Assembly: GCF_003351045.1 (NCBI RefSeq)
Contig: NZ_QQZY01000001.1
Coordinates: 372,001-436,000, forward strand
Direction: 5' to 3'
DNA from: Gaiella occulta
Lineage (GTDB): Bacteria; Actinomycetota; Thermoleophilia; Gaiellales; Gaiellaceae
Length of the DNA stretch: 64,000 nucleotides
Of the stretch, positions 16,594 to 55,612 are shown piece after piece. The position numbers and the translations under genes are program-made. The notes under the pieces are model-generated. The model was given only the letters and a program-made list of their open reading frames with translations. It was not told the DNA's origin and made no database searches. Position 1 is the stretch's first letter, and the number at the start of each line of letters is the position of its first letter.

Positions 16594-16974
16594 ATGAGCG
16601 AGGGGAGACAGCGAGGACGCGCGACGCGGGAGACGAACCGCGTCCTCGACGCGTGGCTGCGCAGCCGCAAAGGACCCGCCGCCGACGCGTTCGCGCTCCG
16701 CGCGGGCGAACGCCTCCACGAGGCCCGCGTCTACCGGGGCACGATCGAGGGCTACCGGCTGGAGGTTCTCAGCAAGCGCGCTGCGCGCGGGATAGAGCTC
16801 GTGGCGACGCTGCGGCGGCCGGACGCCACGGTCAGCTTCCAGCGGGGCTGGGACGCGCTCGACGAGCCGGGCTACGCGGCGGCCGTCGAGGAGGTCGAGC
16901 GCGAGGTGGCGCGGCTGGGACTGTGCGACCCCGAGCGCGTCCAGGTCTTCGCTCCGGGCGGCAAGCGGCCCTAA
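16594..16974 (+). CDS. Hypothetical protein preceding the flagellar island
   Basis: A 126-residue basic protein with an ATG preceded by a good GGAGGG site. A helical N-terminus (TRETNRVLDAWLRSRKG) is followed by several beta strands (ARVYRGTIEGYRLEVLSKR, IELVATLRRPD) and a C-terminal amphipathic helix (AAVEEVEREVARLG). I do not recognise it. Its TAA stop supplies the first three bases of the -35 element of the flgB sigma-28 promoter. Confidence 0.65.
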   Translation: MSEGRQRGRATRETNRVLDAWLRSRKGPAADAFALRAGERLHEARVYRGTIEGYRLEVLSKRAARGIELVATLRRPDATVSFQRGWDALDEPGYAAAVEEVEREVARLGLCDPERVQVFAPGGKRP

Positions 16975-16998
16975 AGGCGGGTCACGACCGACCGATAC
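16972..16998 (+). promoter_or_regulatory. Sigma-28 promoter P1 (flgB operon)
   Basis: CCC-TAAA at 16972-16975, 15 nt spacer, then ACCGATAC at 16991-16998. The consensus at the other sites is GCCGA(C/T)A, so the first -10 base is off. It stands about 105 nt before flgB, leaving a structured leader. The TAAA includes the TAA stop of the upstream gene. Confidence 0.75.
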
Positions 16999-28626: not shown

Positions 28627-29076
28627 GTGAAGAGTCTGTTTCGCGGCAAGAAGCTGATCGCGGTCGCCGCCGTGCTGCTGCTCGCGGCCGGAGGCGTCGC
28701 GTTCGTCGCGCTCGGGCCCGCCGGCGCCGAGGGCAAGACCGTCGCGCCGCCCGTCGAGGTCGGCCTGGGCGAGCCGTTCGTGGTCAACCTGCGCGACGCC
28801 GGCAGCTTCGCCAAGGTCGAGATCGTGCTGAAGGTGGACGCGCGCGCGGAGCTCGCCGCGGCGGAGGCCGGCAAGGGCGGCGGCGGGCAGGCGGCGCTCG
28901 GCGAGCAGGCCGCCGCGCGTGACGCCGTCATCGCGACGATCGGCCGCTACTCGCTCGACCAGCTCCTCTCGCCGGACGGCCGCGAGCGGCTCCGCTCCGA
29001 GCTGCGCAAGGCGGTCGGCAGAGCCGCGCACGTCAAGGTCGCCGAGGTCCTCTTCGTCAACTTCGCCGTTCAGTGA
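28627..29076 (+). CDS. fliL: Flagellar basal body-associated protein FliL
   Basis: A 149-residue protein. A basic N-terminus and one membrane helix (about 10-30) are followed by the FliL domain (VGLGEPFVVNLRDAGSFAKVEIVLKVD, SPDGRERLRSELRKAV, VAEVLFVNFAVQ). It stabilises the stator around the rod. GTG start; stop overlaps fliM. Confidence 0.93.
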   Translation: MKSLFRGKKLIAVAAVLLLAAGGVAFVALGPAGAEGKTVAPPVEVGLGEPFVVNLRDAGSFAKVEIVLKVDARAELAAAEAGKGGGGQAALGEQAAARDAVIATIGRYSLDQLLSPDGRERLRSELRKAVGRAAHVKVAEVLFVNFAVQ

Positions 29077-30068
29077 GCGCCTCCCGCCACCGCCACCCCC
29101 GCGAGCTCGGCCCGTCCGAGATCGCCGGCATCCTTGCCAGCGAGGACACGGAGGGCGACGCGCGCGTGCGCAAGTTCGACTTCTATCGCCCGAACAAGTT
29201 CTCGAAGGAGCAGCTCCGCACGATCGAGCTGTTGCACGAGACCTTCGGCAGGCTGGCGTCGATCCCGCTCTCGGCCGCGCTCCGCGCCGGCGTCGAGTTC
29301 CGCGTGCTCGCGGCCGAGGAGTGCACGAACGGCGAGTTCCACGAGACGCTCGGGCCCGACGCGCTCGTCGCCGTCGTGCAGTCGCCGCCGCTGCCCGGGA
29401 ACTCGGTGCTCGGGCTCCGCTCCGGCTTCGCGCTCACGCTCGTCGACCGCCTGCTGGGCGGCTCCGGCGATCCCGGTGCCGGCGAGGACGCGGACGGCGC
29501 GCCGCGGGAGTCGACGGACATCGAGATCGCACTCCTGAACAGGACCGTCGAACGGATGCTCGGCAGCCTCTCCGAGGCGTGGCAGGCGATCGCGCCGCTC
29601 GCGTTCAAGCTCACGGGCATCGAGCCGAGCGCCCAGTTCGCGCAGGCCGTGGCCGGGGCGGAGATGGGCATGATGCTGCGGCTGGAGATGACCGTCGGCG
29701 AGCACTCGGGCGAGATCTTCCTGCTCATGCCGTACCTGACGCTCGAGCCGGTCCTCCAGAAGCTGAGCGTGCAGGAGTACTTCAGCCGCCGCCACCAGGA
29801 CGCGCGGCAGGAGCGCCAGGACATGCACGAGGAGCTGCCGCGCGTGCCGATCACGCTTCGCGCCGAGCTCGGCCGCGTGCGTCTCACCTACGGCGCCGTC
29901 CGCGCGCTCCGGCCCGGCGCGGTGCTCCGCCTCGGCGTCGAGTCGGAGGCGGAGATCGGCATCTGGACGGGCTCGGAGCAGGTCTTCCGCGCGCGACCCG
30001 GCCGCAGCGGGCGGCGCTCGATCGTCCAGATCACGAGACCTGCCGGCGGAGAGTCGCCGCGATCGTGA
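29073..30068 (+). CDS. fliM: Flagellar motor switch protein FliM
   Basis: A 331-residue switch subunit. The N-terminal LGPSEIAGILAS is the CheY-P binding region, weakly conserved. The core has YRPNKFSKEQLRTIELLHETFGRLAS, LVDRLLGG and a C-terminal SpoA domain (VPITLRAELGRVRLTYGAVRALRPGAVL). GTG overlaps fliL; the stop overlaps the next GTG. Confidence 0.96.
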   Translation: MSASRHRHPRELGPSEIAGILASEDTEGDARVRKFDFYRPNKFSKEQLRTIELLHETFGRLASIPLSAALRAGVEFRVLAAEECTNGEFHETLGPDALVAVVQSPPLPGNSVLGLRSGFALTLVDRLLGGSGDPGAGEDADGAPRESTDIEIALLNRTVERMLGSLSEAWQAIAPLAFKLTGIEPSAQFAQAVAGAEMGMMLRLEMTVGEHSGEIFLLMPYLTLEPVLQKLSVQEYFSRRHQDARQERQDMHEELPRVPITLRAELGRVRLTYGAVRALRPGAVLRLGVESEAEIGIWTGSEQVFRARPGRSGRRSIVQITRPAGGESPRS

Positions 30069-30496
30069 CGTCGGCGCAGTTCCTCGCCGCGGCCGCCGGG
30101 CTCTCCCAGGACGAGCTCCGGGCACTCGTCCGCACCCTGAGCGTCGAGGAGCGCGCGGTCTCGGACCGGCGCCTTGCGCTGCACGCGCTCATCGACCGCG
30201 TACGGACGGAGCTGATCGCCCTGTCGCACGAGAGCGCCGCCGGCCGGACACCCCGCCGTGCGCGGGCGGCCTCGGAGGCCGAGCTTCGCGCCTGGGCGGA
30301 GCGGGCGGTTCTCGCCCGGGAGCCGGGCTCCGGCCTCGACCGGTTCTCCGCCGCCGACGTCGCCCGGCTGCTCCGGCTGCTGCGCGAAGCAGAGATCGAG
30401 ATCTCGGAGCGTCGCCGGGAGCTGCACGACCGGATCGACGCGCTGCACGAGGAGCTGCTCGGGCGGCTCCAGCGCCGCGTCGAGCGCGAGGTGTAG
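30065..30496 (+). CDS. RsiG-like c-di-GMP-binding anti-sigma-28 (candidate)
   Basis: A 143-residue all-helical protein coupled to fliM by a GTGA overlap. It contains two copies of E-x3-S-x2-R-x3-H-x3-D: Glu29, Ser33, Arg36, His40, Asp44 (ERAVSDRRLALHALID) and Glu110, Ser114, Arg117, His121, Asp125 (EIEISERRRELHDRID). Each lies in a predicted long helix, with a basic linker between. RsiG, the anti-sigma of Streptomyces WhiG, binds a c-di-GMP dimer through E-x3-S-x2-R-x3-Q-x3-D on both helices of a coiled coil; here His replaces Gln in both. WhiG and FliA are the same sigma family, and fliA is in this island. I infer a c-di-GMP-armed anti-FliA factor. FliJ-like or other coiled-coil proteins are the alternative, but would not explain the doubled motif. 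Confidence 0.8.
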   Translation: MTSAQFLAAAAGLSQDELRALVRTLSVEERAVSDRRLALHALIDRVRTELIALSHESAAGRTPRRARAASEAELRAWAERAVLAREPGSGLDRFSAADVARLLRLLREAEIEISERRRELHDRIDALHEELLGRLQRRVEREV

Positions 30497-30569: not shown

Positions 30570-30596
30570 TAAAGCGCGGCGGCGGCCTGCCGACAC
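30570..30596 (+). promoter_or_regulatory. Sigma-28 promoter P3 (fliNOPQR)
   Basis: GCC-TAAA at 30570-30573, 15 nt, GCCGACAC at 30589-30596. It lies in the 109-nt gap after the RsiG-like gene. The ATG at 30606 is only 9 nt from the -10; the ATG at 30636 has a ribosome site. Confidence 0.85.
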
Positions 30597-30635: not shown

Positions 30636-31055
30636 ATGACCGAGCGGGGAAGCCCGATCGAGGAGACGGAGGTCGCGGCCGCGCCGGCGACGCCGGAGCC
30701 GGCGAACGCCCACGCGGCCCCCGAGCTCGTCGGGCCCGCGGACGGGGCGGCCGTGACGGCGCCGCTCTCTCGCGGATCCGGCGACAGCCTCGCGGACGTC
30801 GGCGCCCTGCTGGACGTGCCGCTCGATGTCACGGTCGAGCTCGGCCGCGCCCAGCTCAGCATCCGCGACTTCGCGGCGCTCGCCCCCGGCAGCGTCGTCG
30901 GCCTCGACAAGCTCGCCGGCGAGGCGCTCGACATCCTCGTCAACGGCAAGCTCCTCGCCCGCGGCGAGGTCGTCGTCATCGACGACGAGTTCGGCGTCCG
31001 GATCACCGAGATCGTGACCGCCCAGGATCGCCATGGCGATCCGGCGGTGCTCTGA
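30636..31055 (+). CDS. fliN: Flagellar motor switch protein FliN
   Basis: A 139-residue switch protein. The first 60 residues are Ala/Pro-rich and disordered. The last 75 are the SpoA fold, [39 protein letters not shown], then [28 protein letters not shown]. The ATG at 30636 follows AGGGGAG; an upstream ATG at 30606 would add ten residues and be nearly leaderless from P3. It completes the C ring with FliG and FliM. Confidence 0.94.
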
Positions 31056-32634: not shown

Positions 32635-33410
32635 CCTTCCCGGCGCTCGATCCCGGCTACGCGGTCGCGTTCGCGCTCGTGCTCGCCCGCTTCAGCGGGC
32701 TCTTCCTGTTCGCGCCGATCTTCTCGAGCCGCTCGCTGCCGGTGCGGGTGAAGATCATGATCCTCGCCGTCCTCAGCCTCGCCACCGTGCCGAGCGCCGT
32801 GCGCGCCGACCTGCCGCTCGACGGCGTCGCGCTGGCGCTCCTCGCCGGCAAGGAGCTGCTCGTCGGCTTCGCGCTCGCGCTGGCCGTGGGGGCGCTGCTC
32901 ACGGCCGTCCAGGTGGCCGGCGCTCTCATCGACACGTCCGTCGGCTTCAGCCTCGCCACCCTGCTCGACCCGCTCTCGAACATCCAGACGACCGTGCTGG
33001 GCCAGCTCTACGTCATCCTCGGCAGCCTCGTGTTCCTCCTCCTCGACGGACACCACCTGCTGCTCGCGGGCCTGGCCTCGACGTTCGAGCTCTTCCCGCT
33101 GACGGCGTACCCCGACCCTTCCACGCTCGCCGAGAACGCGGTCGACGCCGTCGCCGGGCTCTTCTCCGCGGCCGTCCAGATCGCGGCGCCCGTGCTCGTG
33201 AGCCTCTTCGTCACCGACCTCGCCGTCGGCCTCGTCTCGCGCGCGGTGCCCCAGGCCAACCTGTTCGCCGTCGGCTTCCCGGTCAAGGCGATCGTCGGCC
33301 TCGCCGCGGTCGGTGCGACCCTGCCGCTGTTCGTCACCTCCCTCGGCGACCAACTCGCGCTGGCGCTCGACGGCATGAGCGACCTCGCGGTCAACCTGCT
33401 CCCGCGCTAA
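32631..33410 (+). CDS. fliR: Flagellar export gate protein FliR
   Basis: A 259-residue protein with about six membrane helices. RFSGLFLFAPIFSSRSLPVRVKIM, GELLVGFALALA-like KELLVGFALALAVG and the C-terminal PQANLFAVGFPVKAIVGL are FliR features. ATG overlaps fliQ (ATGA). Its TAA stop forms part of the -35 of the flhB promoter. Confidence 0.96.
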   Translation: MTFPALDPGYAVAFALVLARFSGLFLFAPIFSSRSLPVRVKIMILAVLSLATVPSAVRADLPLDGVALALLAGKELLVGFALALAVGALLTAVQVAGALIDTSVGFSLATLLDPLSNIQTTVLGQLYVILGSLVFLLLDGHHLLLAGLASTFELFPLTAYPDPSTLAENAVDAVAGLFSAAVQIAAPVLVSLFVTDLAVGLVSRAVPQANLFAVGFPVKAIVGLAAVGATLPLFVTSLGDQLALALDGMSDLAVNLLPR

Positions 33411-33434
33411 AGCGGCGACGCCGGCCGCCGATAG
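33408..33434 (+). promoter_or_regulatory. Sigma-28 promoter P4 (flhBAF)
   Basis: CGC-TAAA at 33408-33411, 15 nt, GCCGATAG at 33427-33434: one of the closest matches to the textbook TAAA-N15-GCCGATAA. The TAA is the fliR stop. The flhB GTG is 15 nt beyond the -10, giving a leader of at most about ten bases. Confidence 0.9.
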
Positions 33435-37821: not shown

Positions 37822-37848
37822 TCAAGTGGCGCTCCAGCCCGCCGACAA
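37822..37848 (+). promoter_or_regulatory. Sigma-28 promoter P5 (four-gene unknown operon)
   Basis: CCC-TCAA at 37822-37825, 15 nt, GCCGACAA at 37841-37848. It starts 9 nt after the flhF stop and leads, through a leader with GGAGGGAG, to the ATG at 37881. Confidence 0.85.
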
Positions 37849-40374: not shown

Positions 40375-42675
40375 GTGTCCGCGCGCCCGCGCATCATGCT
40401 GGTGACGAGCGGCTTCGGCTGGCCGCACGCGCCCCTCGAGGAGGCGGTCGGCCGCGCGCTCGCGCAGCGGCGAGCTGCCGCCGGGCTGCTCGAGCTCGAG
40501 CGCTGCCTGGACGCCGCGGCGGCGCGGAAGCTTCGGGAGGGAAGCCTCTCCTCCACCGATTCGGCCGCCGCGCGGTTCCTCGCATTCGTCGACGAGGCCG
40601 TCGCCGCGCACGCGCCGGATGTCGCGCTCGTCTTCCACGGCCGCCTCTTCCCCTCGTTCGCCGTCCAGCGCCTACGCGCCTGCGGCGTGTTCCCCGTCCT
40701 CTGGACGTGCGAGGATCCCTACGAGCTCGACTGGAGCCTCGAGGTGTCCGCATCGTACGGCGCGGTGGCGACGATCGAGCGCTCGTGCGCGCCGGTGTAC
40801 GAGGCGGGGGGGACGCCGTGCCTCTACCTGCCACTCGGGTACGACCCCTACGTCTTCCGGCCGCGCGCCGACGTGCCGCCGGAGTACCGCAGCGACGTGT
40901 GCGTGCTCGGATCCGCTTTCCCTCGCCGCCTCGAGGTGCTCGCCGGTCTCGCTCCGGCGCTCGCCGGGCTCGACGTGCGCATCGTGGGCCGTTGGTGGGA
41001 GCGGCTGCCGCGCGAGCTGCACCGCTTCGTCGACGACCGCATCGTCGGCCCGGAGGAGGCGGCGCTCTTCTACGCGGGCGCGGCGCTCAACCTCAACGTG
41101 CACCGCGACTCGGTCGAGGCGTCCTTCTCGAACCGCACGGGCGTCGTCGGACGCTCGCTCAACAACCGCACCTTCGAGATCGCGGGCGCCGGCGGCTTTC
41201 AGGTGGTCGATCCCGAGCGCGACGAGCGCGGCTCCTTCTTCTCGGAGCGGTCGGTCGGCGTGCTCGGCGACCGGATGCTCGAGTTGCTCGACGACCGCGA
41301 GGCGCTGCGCGAGCGCGGCCGCGCCGCCGCCGCCGAGGCGGCCGGGCGGCACACGTACGCGCACCGCATGGACATGCTGCTGCAGGCGCTCGCCGGCTGG
41401 GACGTGCGGCGGCGCGCGAGCGGCGTCCACGTGCCCGCCGCGCTCCCGGCCGCCGCGCCCGGGCTCACGAGCATCGTCATCCTCACGCGCAACCAGCTCC
41501 GCTACACGCGCGAGTGCGTGGAGAGCATCGAGCGCCACACCCCGGAGCCGCACGATCTCGTCTTCGTCGACAACGGCTCCAGCGACGGGACGCTCGAGTA
41601 CCTGCGCGGGCTCTCCGGCGCCACGGTGATCGAGAACGGCGCGAACCTCGGCTTCGCGATCGGCTGCAACCAGGGCGCGCTGCGGGCGCGCGGCGACGTG
41701 GTCGTCTTCCTCAACAACGACACGGTCGTCACGCCCGGCTGGATCGGCCGCACGCGCGCGCTGCTCGCCGCCGATCCGAGGCGCGGCGCCGTCGGCCCGC
41801 GCTCGAACTCGGTCGGGGGCGAGCAGATCCTGCTCCCCGTCCCGTACACGCCGGACCTCGACGGGCTGGACGCGTTCGCCGCCGGGCGCGCGGAGGCGCT
41901 CGCAGGCGTCGGCCGCGAGACGGACCGGCTCGTCGGCTTCTGCCTCGCCGTCACGCGCGAGGCGCTCGAGCGGGTTGGGGGCTTCGACCCGCGCTTCGGC
42001 AGCGGCAACTTCGAGGACGACGACCTCTGCCTGCGGCTCCGCCTCGCCGGCTACGTGCTCTGGCTCGCCGACGACGTCTTCGTGCACCACTACGGCTCGC
42101 GCACCTTCGCCGGCGAGGGCGTCGACTACGCCCGCAGCCTGGACGAGAACTGGCGCATCTTCGCCGACAAGTGGGGGATCGCGGCGGACGAGTGGGCCGC
42201 GGGCGGCTACGACCCGGCCTCGATCATGGCCCGGGCGGGAGCGTTCGACCCCGCGCGGCACGCGGTGCGTCTCACGGCCGGCTGGCTGCCCGAGCTCGAG
42301 ATCGAGGGCGCCGGGCGGCGGAATCTCCTCCTGGCCTTCGATCCCGACGGCGAGGGCTGGCAGGACGCCCTGCTCGCGTTCGCCGGGTCGTTCTCGGCCG
42401 GCGACGGCGTCTCGCTCCTCGCATACGCACCGGGAGCGGACGCGTCCGCGGCCGCCGAGCGGCTGCTCGCAGTGCTCGGAGACGCGAAAGGGGGGACGGC
42501 GGAGATCGTCCTCGTCGACGGGCCCGTCGACCCGTCGGCGCTCGTCTGGCATGCGGACGCCTGGCTTGCCGCGCCTGCCGCTCCCCCGGACGTGGCTGCC
42601 GCTGCGCGCAGGACGGGTCTGCGCACGATCGACGATCCGACGTCGGCTGCGCTACCGGCCATTCTGGCGAGCTGA
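40375..42675 (+). CDS. Two-domain glycosyltransferase (CgeB-like plus GT2)
   Basis: A 766-residue protein. Residues 1-350 resemble the CgeB/spore-maturation glycosyltransferase group (VLWTCEDPYELDW, LYLPLGYDPYVFRP, NRTFEIAGAGGFQVVD). Residues about 360-610 are a GT2 fold (LTSIVILTRNQLRYTRECVESI, LVFVDNGSSDGTLEYL, NLGFAIGCNQG, VVFLNNDTVVTPGW with the metal-binding DxD replaced by NND). The C-terminal 150 residues are unassigned. The sigma-28 promoter and the neighbours fliS, fliD and fliC suggest flagellin glycosylation. The GTG is chosen because of the 7-nt promoter spacing; the ATG at 40396 is the alternative. Confidence 0.85.
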   Translation: MSARPRIMLVTSGFGWPHAPLEEAVGRALAQRRAAAGLLELERCLDAAAARKLREGSLSSTDSAAARFLAFVDEAVAAHAPDVALVFHGRLFPSFAVQRLRACGVFPVLWTCEDPYELDWSLEVSASYGAVATIERSCAPVYEAGGTPCLYLPLGYDPYVFRPRADVPPEYRSDVCVLGSAFPRRLEVLAGLAPALAGLDVRIVGRWWERLPRELHRFVDDRIVGPEEAALFYAGAALNLNVHRDSVEASFSNRTGVVGRSLNNRTFEIAGAGGFQVVDPERDERGSFFSERSVGVLGDRMLELLDDREALRERGRAAAAEAAGRHTYAHRMDMLLQALAGWDVRRRASGVHVPAALPAAAPGLTSIVILTRNQLRYTRECVESIERHTPEPHDLVFVDNGSSDGTLEYLRGLSGATVIENGANLGFAIGCNQGALRARGDVVVFLNNDTVVTPGWIGRTRALLAADPRRGAVGPRSNSVGGEQILLPVPYTPDLDGLDAFAAGRAEALAGVGRETDRLVGFCLAVTREALERVGGFDPRFGSGNFEDDDLCLRLRLAGYVLWLADDVFVHHYGSRTFAGEGVDYARSLDENWRIFADKWGIAADEWAAGGYDPASIMARAGAFDPARHAVRLTAGWLPELEIEGAGRRNLLLAFDPDGEGWQDALLAFAGSFSAGDGVSLLAYAPGADASAAAERLLAVLGDAKGGTAEIVLVDGPVDPSALVWHADAWLAAPAAPPDVAAAARRTGLRTIDDPTSAALPAILAS

Positions 42676-42703: not shown

Positions 42704-43426
42704 CTACGGTGAGCCGGTGCGGTGGGCGCGGAGGATGTACTGGTAGGCGAGCAGCTGCCGGCGCATTCGATCGGGCCGCGCCCCGAGCGCTGCCGCGCAC
42801 GCGACCAGCGGCTCGACGGCCGGCGAGTCGCCGACCTGGGTCGCCTCGAGCGTGTCGAGCTCGAAGCCGGTCGACTCGAGCATCTCGATGATCTCGGCGA
42901 GGGTGAAGAAGGTGACGTGCGTCCGGTCGAGCAACCCGCGCTCCTCGTATTGCCAGCGTCCGTGTCCCAGGAGCATGGTCAGAACCGACCAGTGCCCGAC
43001 GTTCGGGATCGAGCAGATCAGGGTGCCGTCGTCGGCGAGGTAGCGGCTCAGCATCCCGAGTGCGCGGGTCGGGTCGTGGAGGTGCTCCAGGACGTCGCCG
43101 AAGAGCATGCAGTCGAAGTACCCGTCGGGGAACGGCAGCTCCGTCAGGTGGTCGAGGTCGCCCTCCACCACCGAGTCGAGCCGTGCACGGGCCTCCGCCG
43201 CGGCGTCGGGATAGAGCTCGAGACCGTGGGCCTCGATGCCCGCTTCCTCCCTGAGAGCCGCGCCCAGGTTGCCGATCCCACAGCCGACGTCGAGCGCGCG
43301 CCGCGCCCCTGAGGGGACGAGACGGCGCAGCTCGGGCCGGGAGGCCAGGTAGTAGCGGTCGTTCGTGTCCGCGATGTGGCCGCCCCTTCGGGGGTCGGAG
43401 ACGGGAGTCGTCCCTCGATCGGTCAT
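42704..43426 (-). CDS. SAM-dependent methyltransferase (flagellar-linked)
   Basis: A 240-residue class I methyltransferase. Motif I is ALDVGCGIGNLGAALRE, the acidic post-motif is GLELYP, and VLEHLHDPTRAL follows. It is similar to the methyltransferases found with glycosyltransferases in surface-glycan clusters. Under promoter P8 it should be made with the filament; a role in methylating flagellin or its glycan is inferred. The ATG is 7 nt from the -10, probably leaderless. Convergent with the glycosyltransferase gene. Confidence 0.85.
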   Translation of the reverse strand: MTDRGTTPVSDPRRGGHIADTNDRYYLASRPELRRLVPSGARRALDVGCGIGNLGAALREEAGIEAHGLELYPDAAAEARARLDSVVEGDLDHLTELPFPDGYFDCMLFGDVLEHLHDPTRALGMLSRYLADDGTLICSIPNVGHWSVLTMLLGHGRWQYEERGLLDRTHVTFFTLAEIIEMLESTGFELDTLEATQVGDSPAVEPLVACAAALGARPDRMRRQLLAYQYILRAHRTGSP

Positions 43427-43433
43427 GGCCTAC

Positions 43434-43460
43434 TCATCGGCGGCGGCGACGTGCGGTTGA
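43434..43460 (-). promoter_or_regulatory. Sigma-28 promoter P8 (methyltransferase)
   Basis: Read on the minus strand: CCC-TCAA (43460-43457), 15 nt, GCCGATGA (43441-43434), then 7 nt to the ATG at 43426. It lies in the 53-nt gap after fliD. Confidence 0.82.
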
Positions 43461-45251: not shown

Positions 45252-45278
45252 TTATCGGCCGCGCGCGGCGCTGCTTGA
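45252..45278 (-). promoter_or_regulatory. Sigma-28 promoter P9 (flaG-fliD)
   Basis: Read on the minus strand: CCC-TCAA (45278-45275), 15 nt, GCCGATAA (45259-45252), a perfect sigma-28 -10. The leader to flaG is about 40 nt and carries AAGGA. Confidence 0.92.
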
Positions 45279-45290
45279 GGGCGACTTCCG

Positions 45291-47786
45291 CTAGGCGGCG
45301 CGCTGCGCGACGAGGGCGAGCAGCTCGCGTGCCTGCACGTGGCCGGCGTCGAGCTCGACCGCTCCTTCCAGCAGCTCGGCGGCGTGGCTCCAGAGCTCCT
45401 GGCGCGTCGCCGCGCGCCCGAGACCGTACAGGACCTCGGCGTCGGGGCCGAAGCGTTCGAGCACGGCGTGCCACTCCTCGAGCGCGAGCGCGTCGAAGTC
45501 GTGCCGCTCGTAGAGACGCGCGAGCGCGACACGGCGCGCCCGCTCGTCCGGCACCGCAGCCTCGAAGGCGGGCAGCAGCCGCTCGAAGCGTTCGAACTCC
45601 TCGATGCGCACGAGCGCCTCCAGGTTCGTCAAGCAGAGGACGGCCGCCGCCGCCGGGACGTCCGGCCGGGCCGCCGCGTCGCGCTCGAGCGCGACCCAGG
45701 CGCGGTAGAGCAAGGCCTCGTCGGGCGCGCTGCCGGCAAGCGCGTTCGCGTGCTTCTCCGCGGCGCTCAGGTTGCCCGCGCACACGGCGGCGAAGGAGCG
45801 CCCGCGCAGGGCGGCGGGCGCGAGCGGATGTCCGTCAGGGACGCGTGCGAGCACCTCCTCCGCATCGTCCCAGCGGCGGAGCGAGAGGTGGGTCTCACCC
45901 AGCCCGACGAGCGACGGGGCGTGCCCGGGTGCACGTTCGAGGGCTCGGCGGAACCACGACTCGGCCTGCTCCAGGCGGCGGCGCTCGTAGAAGGCGGTGG
46001 CGACGAACAGGCAGGCGGCGCTCGTCCACTCGACGCCGAGCGCGAGCAGGCGCTCCTCGACCCGGTCGGGATCGTGCTCGAGCAGGAGGTTGACGAGATC
46101 GAGCAGCGCCGGGCTGTACTCGGGCCATTCGCGGACGCATCGCTCGAAGCTCCCGGCTGCCTCGTCGGGCTCGCCCCGGCGGCGTTGCACGTGACCGAGG
46201 CCGCAGAGAGCGAGGAAGGTTCCCGGGCCCGTCACCGGGCTGAGGCGCAGCTCGGCGTCGCCGAGCTCGAGCGCGCGCCGGAACGCCTGCTCCGCGTCGT
46301 CGAGCCGGCCCGCGTCGAGCTCGAGAACGCCGCGCTCGAACACGAGCTCCGTGTGATCCGGATACCAGCCGAGCGCCTCCTCGATGTACGATCGCGCCGC
46401 GTCGGGCTCGGTGGCGCGAAGCGCCTCCGCCAGCCGCACGACGAGCATCGGCGCGAACTGCGAGTTGCGCCAGCCGGGATCGCGCTGGAGCGCGGCGAGG
46501 CCGCGCTCGTAGTGGCGCCGGGCGGTCGCGTAGTCGCCGAGCCACGAGTACTCGGAGCCGAGGTTGAAGTCGTTGAAGGGGGAGGGATGCTCGCGCGCCT
46601 CCCGCTCGAGCAGCTCGCGGTTGCGCCGCGACTTGCCGCGGTCGATCATCCGCTGCTTCAGGTAGCCGTAGTGGTTGATGCGGACGTCGCACACGGCGAA
46701 CCGCTCGGGCAGGTGCAGCGGGAACAGGTGGATCTTCTGCTCGTGGACGATGCCCTCGAAGCGGTAGCGACGACGGTTCCGGAAGAGACGGAAGGCGAGG
46801 TGGCTCGTGGACGAGCCCAGCTCCTCGCTGCCGGTGAAGTTCCGCTCGTTCAGGTAGAAGCCCTCCCGCCACGTCTGCCCGGCGAGCGCGCGCAGCCTCG
46901 CGCCGTCGTCGCCGACGAGCTGCTCGTCGGCGTCGAGATAGAGGATCCAGTCGCCGGTCGCGTGCTCGAGCGAGACGTTGCGGGCATCCGAGAAAGAGCC
47001 GGTCCAGGCGAAGTCGATCACGGTCGCGCCGCGCTCGCTCGCGATCTCGCGGGTGCGGTCGGTCGAGCCCGTATCGACCACGATCAGCTCGTCGACGTGC
47101 TCCCTGACGGAGTCGAGGCACGCGGGCAGCAGCTCCTCCTCGTCCTTGACGATCATGCAGAGCGAGATTCGCGCCGTCTCCGCCGGCCTCGCCATGGAGA
47201 CGATCCGCTCCGCGCGCTGCCGGAGCGGACGGATGCGCGCGTTGACACCGGGAGCGAAGCGCGCCTCCAGCGGGTGACGCAGCCGCCGCTCGGCCTCCGC
47301 GAGGTTCCCCTCGGCGTCGGGCGTGTCGGGCGCGAGCGCGAGCGCGCGCCGGAAGAGCCTCCGCGCCGCGGCGGGCTCGTTCAGCTCGTGCAGGCAGACG
47401 CCGAGGAAGTTGACCAGCAGCGGCTCCGCCGGCCGCTCCTCGAGATAGACGCAGAGCAGCTCGCCCGCGGCCGCGAACACGGCCGGCCAGCTCCGGTCGT
47501 CGCTCGCCGCAGCGAGCTCCAGCAGGCGCAGGGCGCATCCCCGCACGGCGGTGTAGCCCGCCTGGTCGTCCTCGCACGCGAGCGCGGCGCCTGCGAAGGC
47601 GGCGGCGTGCGCGAGCCCGCCGGGGGTCGCGACCACGGCTGCGACGGCGTCCGCCTCGCGGGCGAAGTCCGGCGAGGACGCCAGCGCGCGGAGGGCGGCG
47701 ACCGCCGCACCGGCACCCTCGCGCTTCGCGACGACCGCCGGCGCGACCGCGCCGGACGTCTTGACCTGTGAGATCCGGATGGCCAT
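45291..47786 (-). CDS. GT2 glycosyltransferase with TPR repeats
   Basis: An 831-residue protein. Residues about 1-195 are helical repeats. Residues 203-400 form a GT2 domain (ISLCMIVKDEEELLPACLDSV, DELIVVDTGSTDRTREIA, WILYLDADEQL with the metal DAD). Residues 430-831 are TPR-like helix pairs (ELGDAELRLSPVTG, AESWFRRALERAPGHAPSLVGLGETHL). This GT2-TPR layout occurs in protein O-glycosylation systems, where the TPR part can bind the acceptor. It is promoter P10-driven and sits beside fliC, so flagellin is the likely acceptor. The ATG lies 7 nt from the -10. Confidence 0.88.
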   Translation of the reverse strand: MAIRISQVKTSGAVAPAVVAKREGAGAAVAALRALASSPDFAREADAVAAVVATPGGLAHAAAFAGAALACEDDQAGYTAVRGCALRLLELAAASDDRSWPAVFAAAGELLCVYLEERPAEPLLVNFLGVCLHELNEPAAARRLFRRALALAPDTPDAEGNLAEAERRLRHPLEARFAPGVNARIRPLRQRAERIVSMARPAETARISLCMIVKDEEELLPACLDSVREHVDELIVVDTGSTDRTREIASERGATVIDFAWTGSFSDARNVSLEHATGDWILYLDADEQLVGDDGARLRALAGQTWREGFYLNERNFTGSEELGSSTSHLAFRLFRNRRRYRFEGIVHEQKIHLFPLHLPERFAVCDVRINHYGYLKQRMIDRGKSRRNRELLEREAREHPSPFNDFNLGSEYSWLGDYATARRHYERGLAALQRDPGWRNSQFAPMLVVRLAEALRATEPDAARSYIEEALGWYPDHTELVFERGVLELDAGRLDDAEQAFRRALELGDAELRLSPVTGPGTFLALCGLGHVQRRRGEPDEAAGSFERCVREWPEYSPALLDLVNLLLEHDPDRVEERLLALGVEWTSAACLFVATAFYERRRLEQAESWFRRALERAPGHAPSLVGLGETHLSLRRWDDAEEVLARVPDGHPLAPAALRGRSFAAVCAGNLSAAEKHANALAGSAPDEALLYRAWVALERDAAARPDVPAAAAVLCLTNLEALVRIEEFERFERLLPAFEAAVPDERARRVALARLYERHDFDALALEEWHAVLERFGPDAEVLYGLGRAATRQELWSHAAELLEGAVELDAGHVQARELLALVAQRAA

Positions 47787-47906: not shown

Positions 47907-48722
47907 TTAGCGCAGGAGGCTCAACACCGCCTGCGGCGAGGTGTTCGCCTGGGCGAGCATCGACATACCGGCCTGCTGCATGATCTGGAGCTTGGTGAAG
48001 TTCACCATCTCCGAGGCGACGTCCAGGTCGCGGATCCGCGACTCGGAGGCCGCCAGGTTCTCCCGGTACACGGCCAGGTTCTGGATCGCGTACTCGAGCC
48101 GGTTCTGCGTCGCACCGAACGACGCCCGCAGGTCGGCCACGTTCGCGATCGCCGTGTCGATCGACGCGAGCGTCGCGGTCGCCGCGAACGTGAAGATCCC
48201 CGAATCGACCTTGAAGGTCGAGTCGCCGCCGTAGAGCTTGCCGGCGGTGACGGAGATCGCCTCGCCGTCGTTGGCGCCGACCTGGAAGGTCACCGTCGCG
48301 CTGCCCGTGAGCAGGGCGATGCCGTTGAACTTCGTCTGGTCGCCCATGCGGGAGATCTCGTCGCCGAGCGCCTTGACCTCGGCCGTGATGTTCGCCTTGT
48401 CGGCGGCCGAGAGCGTGTTGTTGTTGTACTGGACGGCCAGCTCGCGGACGCGGTTGAGCATCTCGTGCACGGTGGCCAGCGCGCCTTCCGCAGTCTGGAC
48501 GAGCGAGACGCCGTCCTGGGCGTTCCGGCTGGCCTGCTCGAGGCCCTTGATCTGCGCGCGCATCTTCTGCGAGATGCCGAGCCCGGCGGCGTCGTCGGCC
48601 GCTCGGTTGATCCGGTAGCCGGAGCTGAGCTTCTCCGACGACTTGGCGAGCAGGTCGCCGGTCTTCACCAGCCAGCGGTGGGCGGTGTACGCCTCGACGT
48701 TGTTGTTGATGCGAAGTGCCAT
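47907..48722 (-). CDS. fliC: Flagellin FliC
   Basis: A 271-residue short flagellin. The D0/D1 N-terminus is ALRINNNVEAYTAHRWL with LSSGYRINRAADDAAGLGISQKMRAQIKGL. The central domain is small. The C-terminal coil contains RASFGATQNRLEYAIQNLAVYRENLAASESRIRDLDVASEMV and ends QAVLSLLR. It is the only flagellin in the window. The ATG has an AAGGAGGATG ribosome site. Ser/Thr in the central part would be sites for the neighbouring glycosyltransferases. Confidence 0.98.
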   Translation of the reverse strand: MALRINNNVEAYTAHRWLVKTGDLLAKSSEKLSSGYRINRAADDAAGLGISQKMRAQIKGLEQASRNAQDGVSLVQTAEGALATVHEMLNRVRELAVQYNNNTLSAADKANITAEVKALGDEISRMGDQTKFNGIALLTGSATVTFQVGANDGEAISVTAGKLYGGDSTFKVDSGIFTFAATATLASIDTAIANVADLRASFGATQNRLEYAIQNLAVYRENLAASESRIRDLDVASEMVNFTKLQIMQQAGMSMLAQANTSPQAVLSLLR

Positions 48723-48791: not shown

Positions 48792-48818
48792 TTGTCGGCC
48801 GTGCGCCGGCCGGTTTTA
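48792..48818 (-). promoter_or_regulatory. Sigma-28 promoter P11 (fliC)
   Basis: Read on the minus strand: CCC-TAAA (48818-48815), 15 nt, GCCGACAA (48799-48792). The TAAA includes the TAA stop of csrA. Leader to fliC about 62 nt. Confidence 0.92.
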
Positions 48819-52713: not shown

Positions 52714-53000
52714 GACGCCTCCCCGCGCCCGGCGAGCTGGCCGTAGACCGCGCCGGCGATGCCGACGCCGCCGCCGGCGGCGATCGCGCCGGCGAGCTGC
52801 TCGGCGAGGAGCTGCCCGTAGATGCCGCCGGCGTCGGCCGCCTCGCCGGCGAGCGGGGCAGAGGCGGTCAGCTCCCGCGTGAGGAACGAGAGCAGGAGCG
52901 ACTCGAACTCGAGCGTCTGCCCGAGCAGGCGGCGCTGCTCCGGCGTGGCCGGCGGGAGGACGCCGGGGGGAAGGGCGACACCGTCGACCGGTCCGGGCAT
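52710..53000 (-). CDS. flgJ: Rod-binding protein FlgJ (N-terminal domain only)
   Basis: A 96-residue protein with the rod-binding domain (LGQTLEFESLLLSFLTRELTAS and GGIYGQLLAEQLAGAIAAGGGVGIA). The muramidase half of proteobacterial FlgJ is missing; wall cutting may be done by the SLT-NlpC fusion at 23179. ATG overlaps the flgG stop. Confidence 0.85.
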   Translation of the reverse strand: MPGPVDGVALPPGVLPPATPEQRRLLGQTLEFESLLLSFLTRELTASAPLAGEAADAGGIYGQLLAEQLAGAIAAGGGVGIAGAVYGQLAGRGEAS

Positions 53001-53758
53001 CAGCGCTTGAGGCCGTTGGCGATGCCGTACATCTCGTCGGAGGCCGAGACGACCTTGCTCAGCATCCCGAAGGCGCGCTGCGCCTCGATCAGGGAGGTCA
53101 TCTCGGTCATCAGGGAGACGTTCGAGGACTCGAGCCGGCCCTGGAGGACGGCGTTGCCCCGGCCGGGCTCCAGCGCCCGCGCCGGGCCGGACGCGTCCGT
53201 CGCCGTGAAGAGGCCGTCGCCGCTGGGGGCAAGGCCGGCCGGGTTCGCGAAGGTGGCGAGGGTGATCCGGCCGAGCTCGACCCTGCGACCGTCGGCGCCC
53301 GTGGCGCCGACCCGGCCGTCCGTGCCGACGGTGAGGCCGGATGCGCCCGCGGGCAGCGCGACCGGCGGATCGAGCAGATCGCCGCCCGGCGTCACGAGAC
53401 GGCCGTTCGCGTCGAGCTGGAAGTTCCCCGCGCGCGTGTAGGACACGCTTCCGTCGGCGCCGCGCACCCGGAAGAAACCGCGGCCCTCGATCGCGAGATC
53501 GGTCGGACGTCCCGTCTCTTGCAGCACGCCCGTCGCGTCGTCGCGGTCGACGGAGACGGCGGCGGCGCCGCTGCCGACGCGGACGCCGGCCGCCGTACTG
53601 CTGCCGGTGGAGGCGTCGCGGTAGAGGAGGTCGCCGAAGCTCGCGCGGCTCGCCTTGAAGCCCGGCGTGTTCGCGTTCGAGAGATTGTTGGCGATCGTGT
53701 CGATCCGAAGCTGCTGGGCCGCCATGCCGCTGGCTGCGGCCCTAAGGGCGTCGCTCAT
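53000..53758 (-). CDS. flgG: Flagellar rod protein FlgG
   Basis: A 252-residue FlgF/FlgG/FlgE family rod protein: RAAASGMAAQQLRIDTIANNLSNANTPGFKASR at the start, GFFRVRGADGSVSYTRAGNFQLDANG in the centre and SSNVSLMTEMTSLIEAQRAFGMLSKVVSASDEM at the end. FlgG is preferred over FlgF by length and by the distal position. AGGAGG ribosome site. First gene of the P12 operon. Confidence 0.85.
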   Translation of the reverse strand: MSDALRAAASGMAAQQLRIDTIANNLSNANTPGFKASRASFGDLLYRDASTGSSTAAGVRVGSGAAAVSVDRDDATGVLQETGRPTDLAIEGRGFFRVRGADGSVSYTRAGNFQLDANGRLVTPGGDLLDPPVALPAGASGLTVGTDGRVGATGADGRRVELGRITLATFANPAGLAPSGDGLFTATDASGPARALEPGRGNAVLQGRLESSNVSLMTEMTSLIEAQRAFGMLSKVVSASDEMYGIANGLKR

Positions 53759-53791: not shown

Positions 53792-53818
53792 GTGTCGGCG
53801 CCGTCCGCCGGGGCTTTA
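53792..53818 (-). promoter_or_regulatory. Sigma-28 promoter P12 (flgG to csrA operon)
   Basis: Read on the minus strand: CCC-TAAA (53818-53815), 15 nt, GCCGACAC (53799-53792). The leader to flgG is about 30 nt and contains AGGAGG. It drives flgG, flgJ, yvyF-like, flgN, flgK, flgL, fliW and csrA. Confidence 0.9.
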
Positions 53819-54763: not shown

Positions 54764-55612
54764 ATGAGCACCGCGCCCACCACGCTTCCCGATCCGACAC
54801 GTGTCAACAAGGAGCTCGAGGAGTTGTGGAGAAGCTTCACGCGCACCCGCTGCCCACGCACCCGCGACCGCCTGATCCTCACCTACGCGCCGCTTGTGAA
54901 GTACGTCGCCGGCCGCGTCGGCTCGACGCTGCCCGACCACGTAGAGAGGTCCGATCTGATCAGCGACGGCCTCATCGGCCTGATCGAGGCCGTCGACCGC
55001 TTCCGCCCCTCCGAGGGCGTCAAGTTCGAGAGCTTCGCGCTGACGCGGATCAGGGGCGCCATGCTCGACCGCATGCGCTCGCTCGACTGGGCGCCGCGCT
55101 CGCTGCGGACGAGCCAGCGCCGGATCGAGCAGACCCTGCGGAAGCTCGAGCAGCGGACAGGGGGGTCCCCATCCTGGGACGAGGTCGCGGACGAGCTCGG
55201 CGTCTCGCGCGAGGAGCTCGACGACGCGCTCGTCGAGATCGGTCGCAGCTCGCTCGTCGCGCTCGACCGCACCCTGTCGGGCGCCGGCGAGGCGGACGAC
55301 GGCCTCGACCTCTACAGCCGCATCGCAGACGCCAACGCCGACGAGCCGGTTAGCGAGCTCGAGCTCGAGGAGCAGCGGGAGCTGCTCGTCAAGGCGATCG
55401 ACGCTCTGCCGGAGCGGGAGCGGCTCGTGCTCGTGCTCTTCTACTACGAGGAGCTGCCGCTGCGCGCGATCTCGTCGATGCTCGGCGTGACCGACTCGCG
55501 GGTCTCCCAGCTCCAGGCACAGGCGCTCGTCCGCCTCCGCGCCCGCCTCCGGCACCTCTGGCCGGAGTCTCAGGAATCCGAGGCCGAGCAGGCCGCCGTC
55601 GCGGCGGCGTGA
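54764..55612 (+). CDS. fliA: RNA polymerase sigma factor FliA/WhiG type
   Basis: A 282-residue sigma-28. Region 2: ILTYAPLVKYVAGRVGSTLPDHVERSDLISDGLIGLIEAVDRF and KFESFALTRIRGAMLDRMRSLDWAPRSLR. Region 3: the EVADELGVSREELDDAL helix. Region 4: LPERERLVLVLFYYEELPLRAISSMLGVTDSRVSQLQAQAL. This is the FliA/SigD/WhiG family. It should read the P1-P13 sites. The ATG at 54764 follows CAGGAG; no sigma-28 site is seen ahead of it, so its own transcription probably uses the housekeeping sigma. Confidence 0.97.
   Translation: MSTAPTTLPDPTRVNKELEELWRSFTRTRCPRTRDRLILTYAPLVKYVAGRVGSTLPDHVERSDLISDGLIGLIEAVDRFRPSEGVKFESFALTRIRGAMLDRMRSLDWAPRSLRTSQRRIEQTLRKLEQRTGGSPSWDEVADELGVSREELDDALVEIGRSSLVALDRTLSGAGEADDGLDLYSRIADANADEPVSELELEEQRELLVKAIDALPERERLVLVLFYYEELPLRAISSMLGVTDSRVSQLQAQALVRLRARLRHLWPESQESEAEQAAVAAA

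Follow-up and report, generated by a model that had tools for sequence, protein, structure and literature searches.

The window, a stretch of 64,000 nt of DNA of Gaiella occulta, an actinobacterium of the class Thermoleophilia, carries a single flagellar island (genes 17103-55612) in which fliA is the last gene (Table 1). The island opens with flgB, flgC, fliE-J, fliK, flgD, flgE, flbD, motA, motB, fliL, and fliM, followed by the gene that we call rsiG-fla. After it come fliN, fliO-R, flhB, flhA, and an FlhF-like gene, and further on lie fliS, fliD, flaG, flagellin, csrA, fliW, flgL, flgK, and flgF/G, and then fliA. Selected gene names were checked with Pfam, and the others were assigned by order and similarity. 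The motor-switch genes fliM and fliN thus flank rsiG-fla. Its ORF of 143 codons begins with GTG, overlaps the stop codon of fliM by 4 bp (GTGA), and is scored as coding by codon use. An earlier note on this DNA had described an RsiG-like gene directly after fliM, with a product of 143 residues that carries a c-di-GMP-type motif at residues 29-44 and 110-125, and had placed fliA in the same island; all of this is borne out, the motif positions exactly as claimed.

Table 1. Coordinates of rsiG-fla, its flagellar surroundings, and the FliA/WhiG-type promoter candidates in the window
Feature	Position	Strand	Basis or remark
Promoter candidate 105 bp upstream of flgB, which heads the run ending in fliM-rsiG-fla	16972-16998	+	2 mismatches
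Rest of the flagellar island (flgB...fliN...flhA, fliS, flagellin, csrA, fliW, flgL, flgK, flgF/G)	17103-54547		Gene calls, selected Pfam checks
fliM	29073-30068	+	PF02154 (E 5.6e-43) and PF01052
rsiG-fla (RsiG-family gene, 143 aa, twin motif)	30065-30496	+	PF22802, AlphaFold, Foldseek
c-di-GMP-type motif 1, aa 29-44, ERAVSDRRLALHALID	30149-30196	+	Sequence
c-di-GMP-type motif 2, aa 110-125, EIEISERRRELHDRID	30392-30439	+	Sequence
Promoter candidate between rsiG-fla and fliN, TAAA-N15-GCCGACAC	30570-30596	+	2 mismatches
fliN	30636-31055	+	PF01052 (E 1.6e-25)
Promoter candidate before flhB	33408-33434	+	1 mismatch
Promoter candidate before gene 37881	37822-37848	+	2 mismatches
Promoter candidate before methyltransferase gene 42704-43426	43434-43460	-	2 mismatches; gene by Pfam
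Promoter candidate before flaG/fliD	45252-45278	-	1 mismatch
Promoter candidate before flagellin gene 47907-48722	48792-48818	-	1 mismatch
Promoter candidate before FlgF/G-type gene 53000-53758	53792-53818	-	2 mismatches; gene by Pfam
fliA, proposed partner sigma, 282 aa	54764-55612	+	TIGR02479, 243.3 bits (cut-off 189.6)
FliA K46, G50, R51 (equivalents of WhiG K57, G61, R62)	54899-54916	+	Alignment

The G+C content of the island (0.733) is near that of its flanks (0.745 and 0.755). In genus-mates, these flanks are kept (murI in all four examined, gene 15662 nearby in two of the four) with no flagellar genes between them, and FliM was found in none of six genus-mates. The N-terminus of the G. 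occulta FliM (window 29073-29150) deviates from the LSQxEIDALL consensus of related FliMs, the CheY-binding region. No chemotaxis genes were noticed among the gene calls of the window. Two large glycosyltransferases (40375-42675, 766 aa, and 45291-47786, 831 aa with TPRs) adjoin the flagellin genes, suggesting flagellin glycosylation.

Identity and predicted fold of RsiG-fla

The motif E-x3-S-x2-R-x3-H-x3-D occurs twice in RsiG-fla, with all ten motif positions intact. Such a twin motif is far from expected by chance: when the protein was shuffled 200,000 times, two motifs never occurred in the same shuffled sequence, and at least one occurred in 0.06%. Only three ORFs with two motifs are found in the genome DNA (363,329 six-frame residues), and all three match the Pfam RsiG profile. 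RsiG (PF22802, RsiG-like) is the sole Pfam family matched by the protein (E 2e-10, 40.6 bits against a cut-off of 27, in two stretches), and the same profile gave zero matches above cut-off in 14 control genomes. A profile built from RsiG-fla and seven twin-motif relatives retrieved the Streptomyces venezuelae RsiG (6pfj) over its full length (E 6e-13) and the Rubrobacter RsiG (E 3e-10); such a profile search was needed because a single-sequence phmmer search against the RsiGs in the PDB was not significant (E 0.15). The protein is divergent, with 28-35% identity to canonical twin RsiGs, and its length and linker are similar to those of stand-alone twin RsiGs. The stacking position is Gln in the S. 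venezuelae RsiG and His in RsiG-fla, and known RsiGs often have His in place of Gln, in motif 1 at least (PMC8325347). These sequence matches place the product of rsiG-fla in the RsiG family.

The AlphaFold2 model of RsiG-fla, made with an alignment of the seven twin-motif relatives, has a mean pLDDT of 91.4 and predicts an antiparallel two-helix coiled coil, with helices at residues 15-58 and 96-142 and a linker that includes a short helix. The motif arginines R36 and R117 are symmetric around the linker centre, residue 77, so that an antiparallel hairpin would set the two motifs face to face, as in known RsiG. The best Foldseek match in the PDB was the S. venezuelae RsiG (6pfv_T, probability 1.00), with an E value of 0.06 because simple hairpins are common. 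With VIA-align, RsiG ranked 18 at a Z of 9.4; since many unrelated coiled coils score at similar Z, fold similarity alone was not taken as proof, and the sequence profile is the stronger evidence for the identity of RsiG-fla. The earlier note had called the gene RsiG-like, proposing a profile search, and had expected a two-helix hairpin. The former claim is upheld by the PF22802 match above its cut-off, and the latter agrees with the predicted model.

Sigma factors, promoter candidates, and the canonical RsiG/WhiG pair

The genome of G. occulta encodes two FliA/WhiG sigma factors, the island FliA (243 bits) and a second WhiG-type sigma (C2:422227-423009, 291 bits), which are 53% identical. The island FliA matches the S. 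venezuelae WhiG (6pfv) with a phmmer E of 6e-69. WhiG contacts c-di-GMP through K57, G61, and R62 on helix alpha2 of sigma2 in S. venezuelae and through K53, G57, and R58 in Rubrobacter (PMC8325347). All three K/G/R contacts are kept in both sigmas of G. occulta and in 36 of the 37 WhiG-type sigmas with coverage; in the separate flagellar FliA clade of the class, none of 17 keeps them, and the Gly is changed in every one. The island FliA retains 74 of 98 WhiG-invariant columns (76%), which gives a chance of about 0.4 that K/G/R would be retained without special constraint, so the retention is weak evidence if taken alone. In both sigma trees the island FliA falls on the WhiG side (support 92/74 and 82), with a grouping with other flagellar FliAs not rejected (p-AU 0.14). 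In the class sample, the WhiG-type sigma is near-universal, in flagellated genomes or not, and a second, lower-scoring FliA is nearly confined to flagellated genomes, where it often shares a contig with fliM. One relative (G055; L239, L260, and L264) has three WhiG/FliA sigmas, all keeping K/G/R. FlgM (PF04316) had no match in the whole genome of G. occulta (98% complete), in agreement with the earlier note, which had stated that flgM is missing; the genome encodes eight GGDEF domains.

Promoters were sought with the consensus TAAA-N14-16-GCCGATAA, allowing up to two mismatches, and the expectation was taken from order-1 Markov sequences. The 13 matches (0.3 expected), which are consensus matches known from sequence alone, merge into 10 sites when overlaps are joined. 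Nine of these are within the island or at its start and precede flgB, fliN, flhB, 37881, 38520, flagellin, flaG, methyltransferase, and FlgF/G-type genes. With one candidate before flgB and another just after rsiG-fla, in its 139-bp gap to fliN, rsiG-fla appears to close a run headed by a FliA-type promoter, with a new run following. No FliA/WhiG-type site was found upstream of fliA in the same consensus scan. WhiG and the flagellar sigma share a promoter consensus (PMC8325347). A WhiG/FliA-type candidate site (TCAA-N15-GCCGATAG) also lies upstream of a GAF-EAL gene of c-di-GMP phosphodiesterase type (C2:245219-246544; L017:16058-17545), about 6 kb from the canonical rsiG, which is reminiscent of Rubrobacter, where DGC and PDE genes are among the likely sigma targets (PMC8325347).

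This canonical RsiG of G. occulta (C2:238706-239167; L017:9707-10168) also has the twin motif and is 34% identical to RsiG-fla over 124 aligned positions. Across the class, its locus consists of pgsA or manC, rsiG, zinc-ribbon/FHA, MerR, and apt. Because the genome holds, outside the window, both this RsiG and the second WhiG, rsiG-fla and the island FliA are a flagellar paralogue pair beside canonical RsiG/WhiG. The genus-mates have one WhiG-type sigma and the canonical RsiG, without flagella, rsiG-fla, or the island fliA.

Beyond canonical and other RsiGs, no orthologue of rsiG-fla was found in 396 genomes of the phylum (E 1e-6), in 103 genomes of the family (E 1e-5), or in plasmids and viral contigs. 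The order fliM-rsiG-fliN occurs in only one of 30 FliM loci sampled from the class, that of G. occulta itself, and none of 80 FliM loci of GTDB genomes has an RsiG gene, the nearest FliMs being only about 40% identical. In a tree of helix halves, those of RsiG-fla are on long branches (1.1-1.5 changes per site), and the halves are too short for the tree to trace RsiG-fla to the canonical copy. The earlier note had proposed an ancestral motility role for the switch. This is not supported by rsiG-fla, because the gene has no orthologue found in these searches and is an extra copy beside the canonical pair, a lineage-restricted paralogue whose island is missing from genus-mates.

The RsiG of two genomes (G009 and G179), located 17-18 kb from fliM, was considered as the same arrangement and rejected, as it belongs to the canonical locus, with the first flagellar gene about 5 kb away. 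In two genomes of family f2 (L113:8574-9074, 13932 on; L115:9470-9970, 15014 on), some 5 kb separate the canonical rsiG locus from the flagellar cluster downstream of it on the same strand, which may be chance or linkage. Canonical RsiGs with the twin motif were seen in this genus and in family f2 (L017:9707-10168, L122:8633-9094, L113:8574-9074, and L115:9470-9970), and most of the class has a single-motif RsiG; published work lists Thermoleophilia RsiGs as single-motif only. The twin-motif halves of the genus and of f2 cluster apart with weak support, hinting at independent internal duplications.

RsiG-type hairpins also occur in other proteins. An acetoacetate-CoA ligase-like enzyme (749 aa, AMP-binding; G000:C7:54553-56802; L018:9554-11803, minus strand) ends in a compact twin RsiG-type hairpin with motifs at 684 and 722 (Pfam RsiG E 2.7e-8), and in a genus-mate (L081) a similar motif spacing is found at the edge of a contig; c-di-GMP control of this metabolic enzyme is possible. 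In family f5, RsbW/SpoIIAB-type HATPase proteins (HATPase_c_2; L118:8409-9131, minus; L119:2955-3581, minus; L120:8252-8866, plus) have a single C-terminal RsiG region, two of the three RsiG matches being just under the cut-off. RsiG hairpins thus look like a movable module.

Proposed role of RsiG-fla and control of flagella in Thermoleophilia

We consider it fairly likely that RsiG-fla is a flagellum-dedicated, c-di-GMP-dependent anti-sigma factor that stands in the place of FlgM, and its likely target is FliA. The two long helices would form an antiparallel hairpin with one motif on each helix. At high c-di-GMP the hairpin would bind a c-di-GMP dimer, and the dimer and the linker would hold the sigma2 and sigma4 domains of the island FliA; RNA polymerase would then be unable to use FliA-type promoters, and the flagellar genes would be silent. 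At low c-di-GMP, FliA would be freed and would drive the island. Because rsiG-fla ends a run that starts with a FliA-type promoter candidate, FliA may also raise its own inhibitor. c-di-GMP would thus probably switch off flagellum building directly. The earlier note had likewise inferred that the c-di-GMP-loaded protein sequesters FliA, and its interpretation as a whole is partly supported by our analysis. The simplest reading, a c-di-GMP-dependent anti-FliA with negative feedback, is based on the RsiG profile, the predicted hairpin, the K/G/R residues and the FliA/WhiG tree position of FliA, and the promoter enrichment, and also on the lack of a FlgM match, the eight GGDEF domains, and the fact that the island, fliA, and rsiG-fla are all missing in genus-mates. 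Against it stand the divergence of RsiG-fla, the lack of an orthologue in our searches, the chance of about 0.4 for K/G/R retention, and the p-AU of 0.14. We infer c-di-GMP binding by RsiG-fla, its choice of FliA over the second WhiG, and its effect on motility.

The second WhiG, which probably favours the same promoters as FliA, could be an alternative target. RsiG-fla might be the c-di-GMP-dependent anti-sigma of this WhiG, or of both sigmas, which would place the flagellar genes and other WhiG genes under common control. Both sigmas, 53% identical, keep K/G/R, and the WhiG promoter consensus equals the flagellar one (PMC8325347). However, the second WhiG is already paired with a canonical twin-motif RsiG, whose locus is conserved in the class, the genus-mates retain that pair without rsiG-fla, and rsiG-fla shares the flagellar island with fliA, and we regard this possibility as unlikely.

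A target outside transcription has also to be considered. RsiG-fla could keep its hairpin and c-di-GMP binding and act on the flagellar machine (FliM/FliN or export) as a YcgR-type brake with no sigma target, a proposal suggested by the flanking motor-switch genes and by the fact that RsiG-type hairpins are add-on modules on proteins that do not bind sigma, such as the tail of the acetoacetate-CoA ligase-like enzyme and the HATPase fusions in relatives. We find it quite improbable, considering that to our knowledge no RsiG acts on the motor, that the length and linker of RsiG-fla are like those of stand-alone twin RsiGs, and that the genome has no FlgM match yet has a WhiG-side FliA. The long branches of its halves and the lack of orthologues in our searches would also fit a decayed or redeployed RsiG copy that has lost c-di-GMP binding or is constitutive; this is highly improbable, as all ten motif residues are intact, codon use marks the frame as coding, and the 4-bp overlap with fliM is expected of a maintained operon gene.

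FlgM is the usual brake on FliA; it reads the assembly of the hook-basal body and is released by export through it. A c-di-GMP-dependent anti-FliA would resemble FlgM in keeping FliA off flagellar promoters, but the two are unrelated in sequence and differ in their control, which is export for FlgM and c-di-GMP for RsiG. c-di-GMP also lowers flagellar output via controls of the FleQ and YcgR types, FleQ being an enhancer-binding regulator and YcgR a PilZ motor brake. The proposed effect of RsiG-fla is in the same direction, although neither FleQ nor YcgR is an anti-sigma factor. The RsiG-WhiG of S. venezuelae (6pfj, 6pfv), to which RsiG-fla has a full-length profile match, likewise has two motifs in one chain, an antiparallel hairpin (predicted for RsiG-fla), and a FliA/WhiG-type partner with K/G/R (a candidate partner in the case of RsiG-fla), but its role is the control of sporulation, in an organism that is not motile, and it is encoded outside a flagellar operon. 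The RsiG of Rubrobacter radiotolerans (7lq2-7lq4; PMC8325347), also from a unicellular actinobacterium, shares the c-di-GMP motif and the WhiG-family partner; unlike RsiG-fla, it is a single-motif homodimer that likely controls type IV pili. In R. radiotolerans, sigma4 also touches c-di-GMP, and by our reading of the alignment most such residues are changed in the island FliA. The canonical RsiG of G. occulta is of the same family and has the twin motif, but differs from RsiG-fla in its conserved pgsA/manC-rsiG-FHA-MerR-apt locus and its presence in flagella-less genus-mates.

The wider idea of a motility role is supported elsewhere in the class, indirectly, by gene content and promoter candidates. 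Nine flagellated genomes of families f2 and f5 (G007, G031, G043, G073, G109, G113, G122, G009, and G179) have one WhiG-type sigma and the canonical RsiG, with no match to FlgM, a short protein that a search can overlook. In f2, flagellin, rod, and cheW genes have WhiG-type promoter candidates ahead of them, and such candidates also stand before cheY-like genes in FliM neighbourhoods of Thermoleophilia resembling f5. Judging from gene content, these families would have a single recognised flagellar sigma, with the canonical RsiG as its sole recognised anti-sigma. Flagellar control by RsiG-WhiG in f2 and f5 is reported neither in a survey of flagella in the phylum (PMC10746217) nor in the paper on RsiG evolution (PMC8325347). 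We tentatively propose, with rather less than even confidence, that in Thermoleophilia c-di-GMP acts via RsiG at the level of the sigma factor to control flagellum synthesis, through canonical RsiG-WhiG in flagellated families with a single WhiG and no FlgM, and through a separate RsiG-FliA in G. occulta. If this is true, flagellar control would be an old role, or a repeated one, of the switch otherwise known for sporulation and pili.

The family, fold, and ligand mode of RsiG are already known; we found no description in the literature of an RsiG in a flagellar operon, of an RsiG as a flagellar anti-sigma replacing FlgM, or of two RsiG/sigma pairs in one cell. An RsiG in the place of FlgM would read a second messenger instead of the assembly of the hook-basal body, and would link c-di-GMP to flagellar transcription in one step, without an activator, riboswitch, or PilZ protein. 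It would also bear on the original target of the RsiG-WhiG switch, which the 2021 work left open, with pili as the target in Rubrobacter and spores in Streptomyces. A cell with two sigma/anti-sigma pairs of one type would, in addition, lend itself to the study of how such switches are kept insulated from each other.
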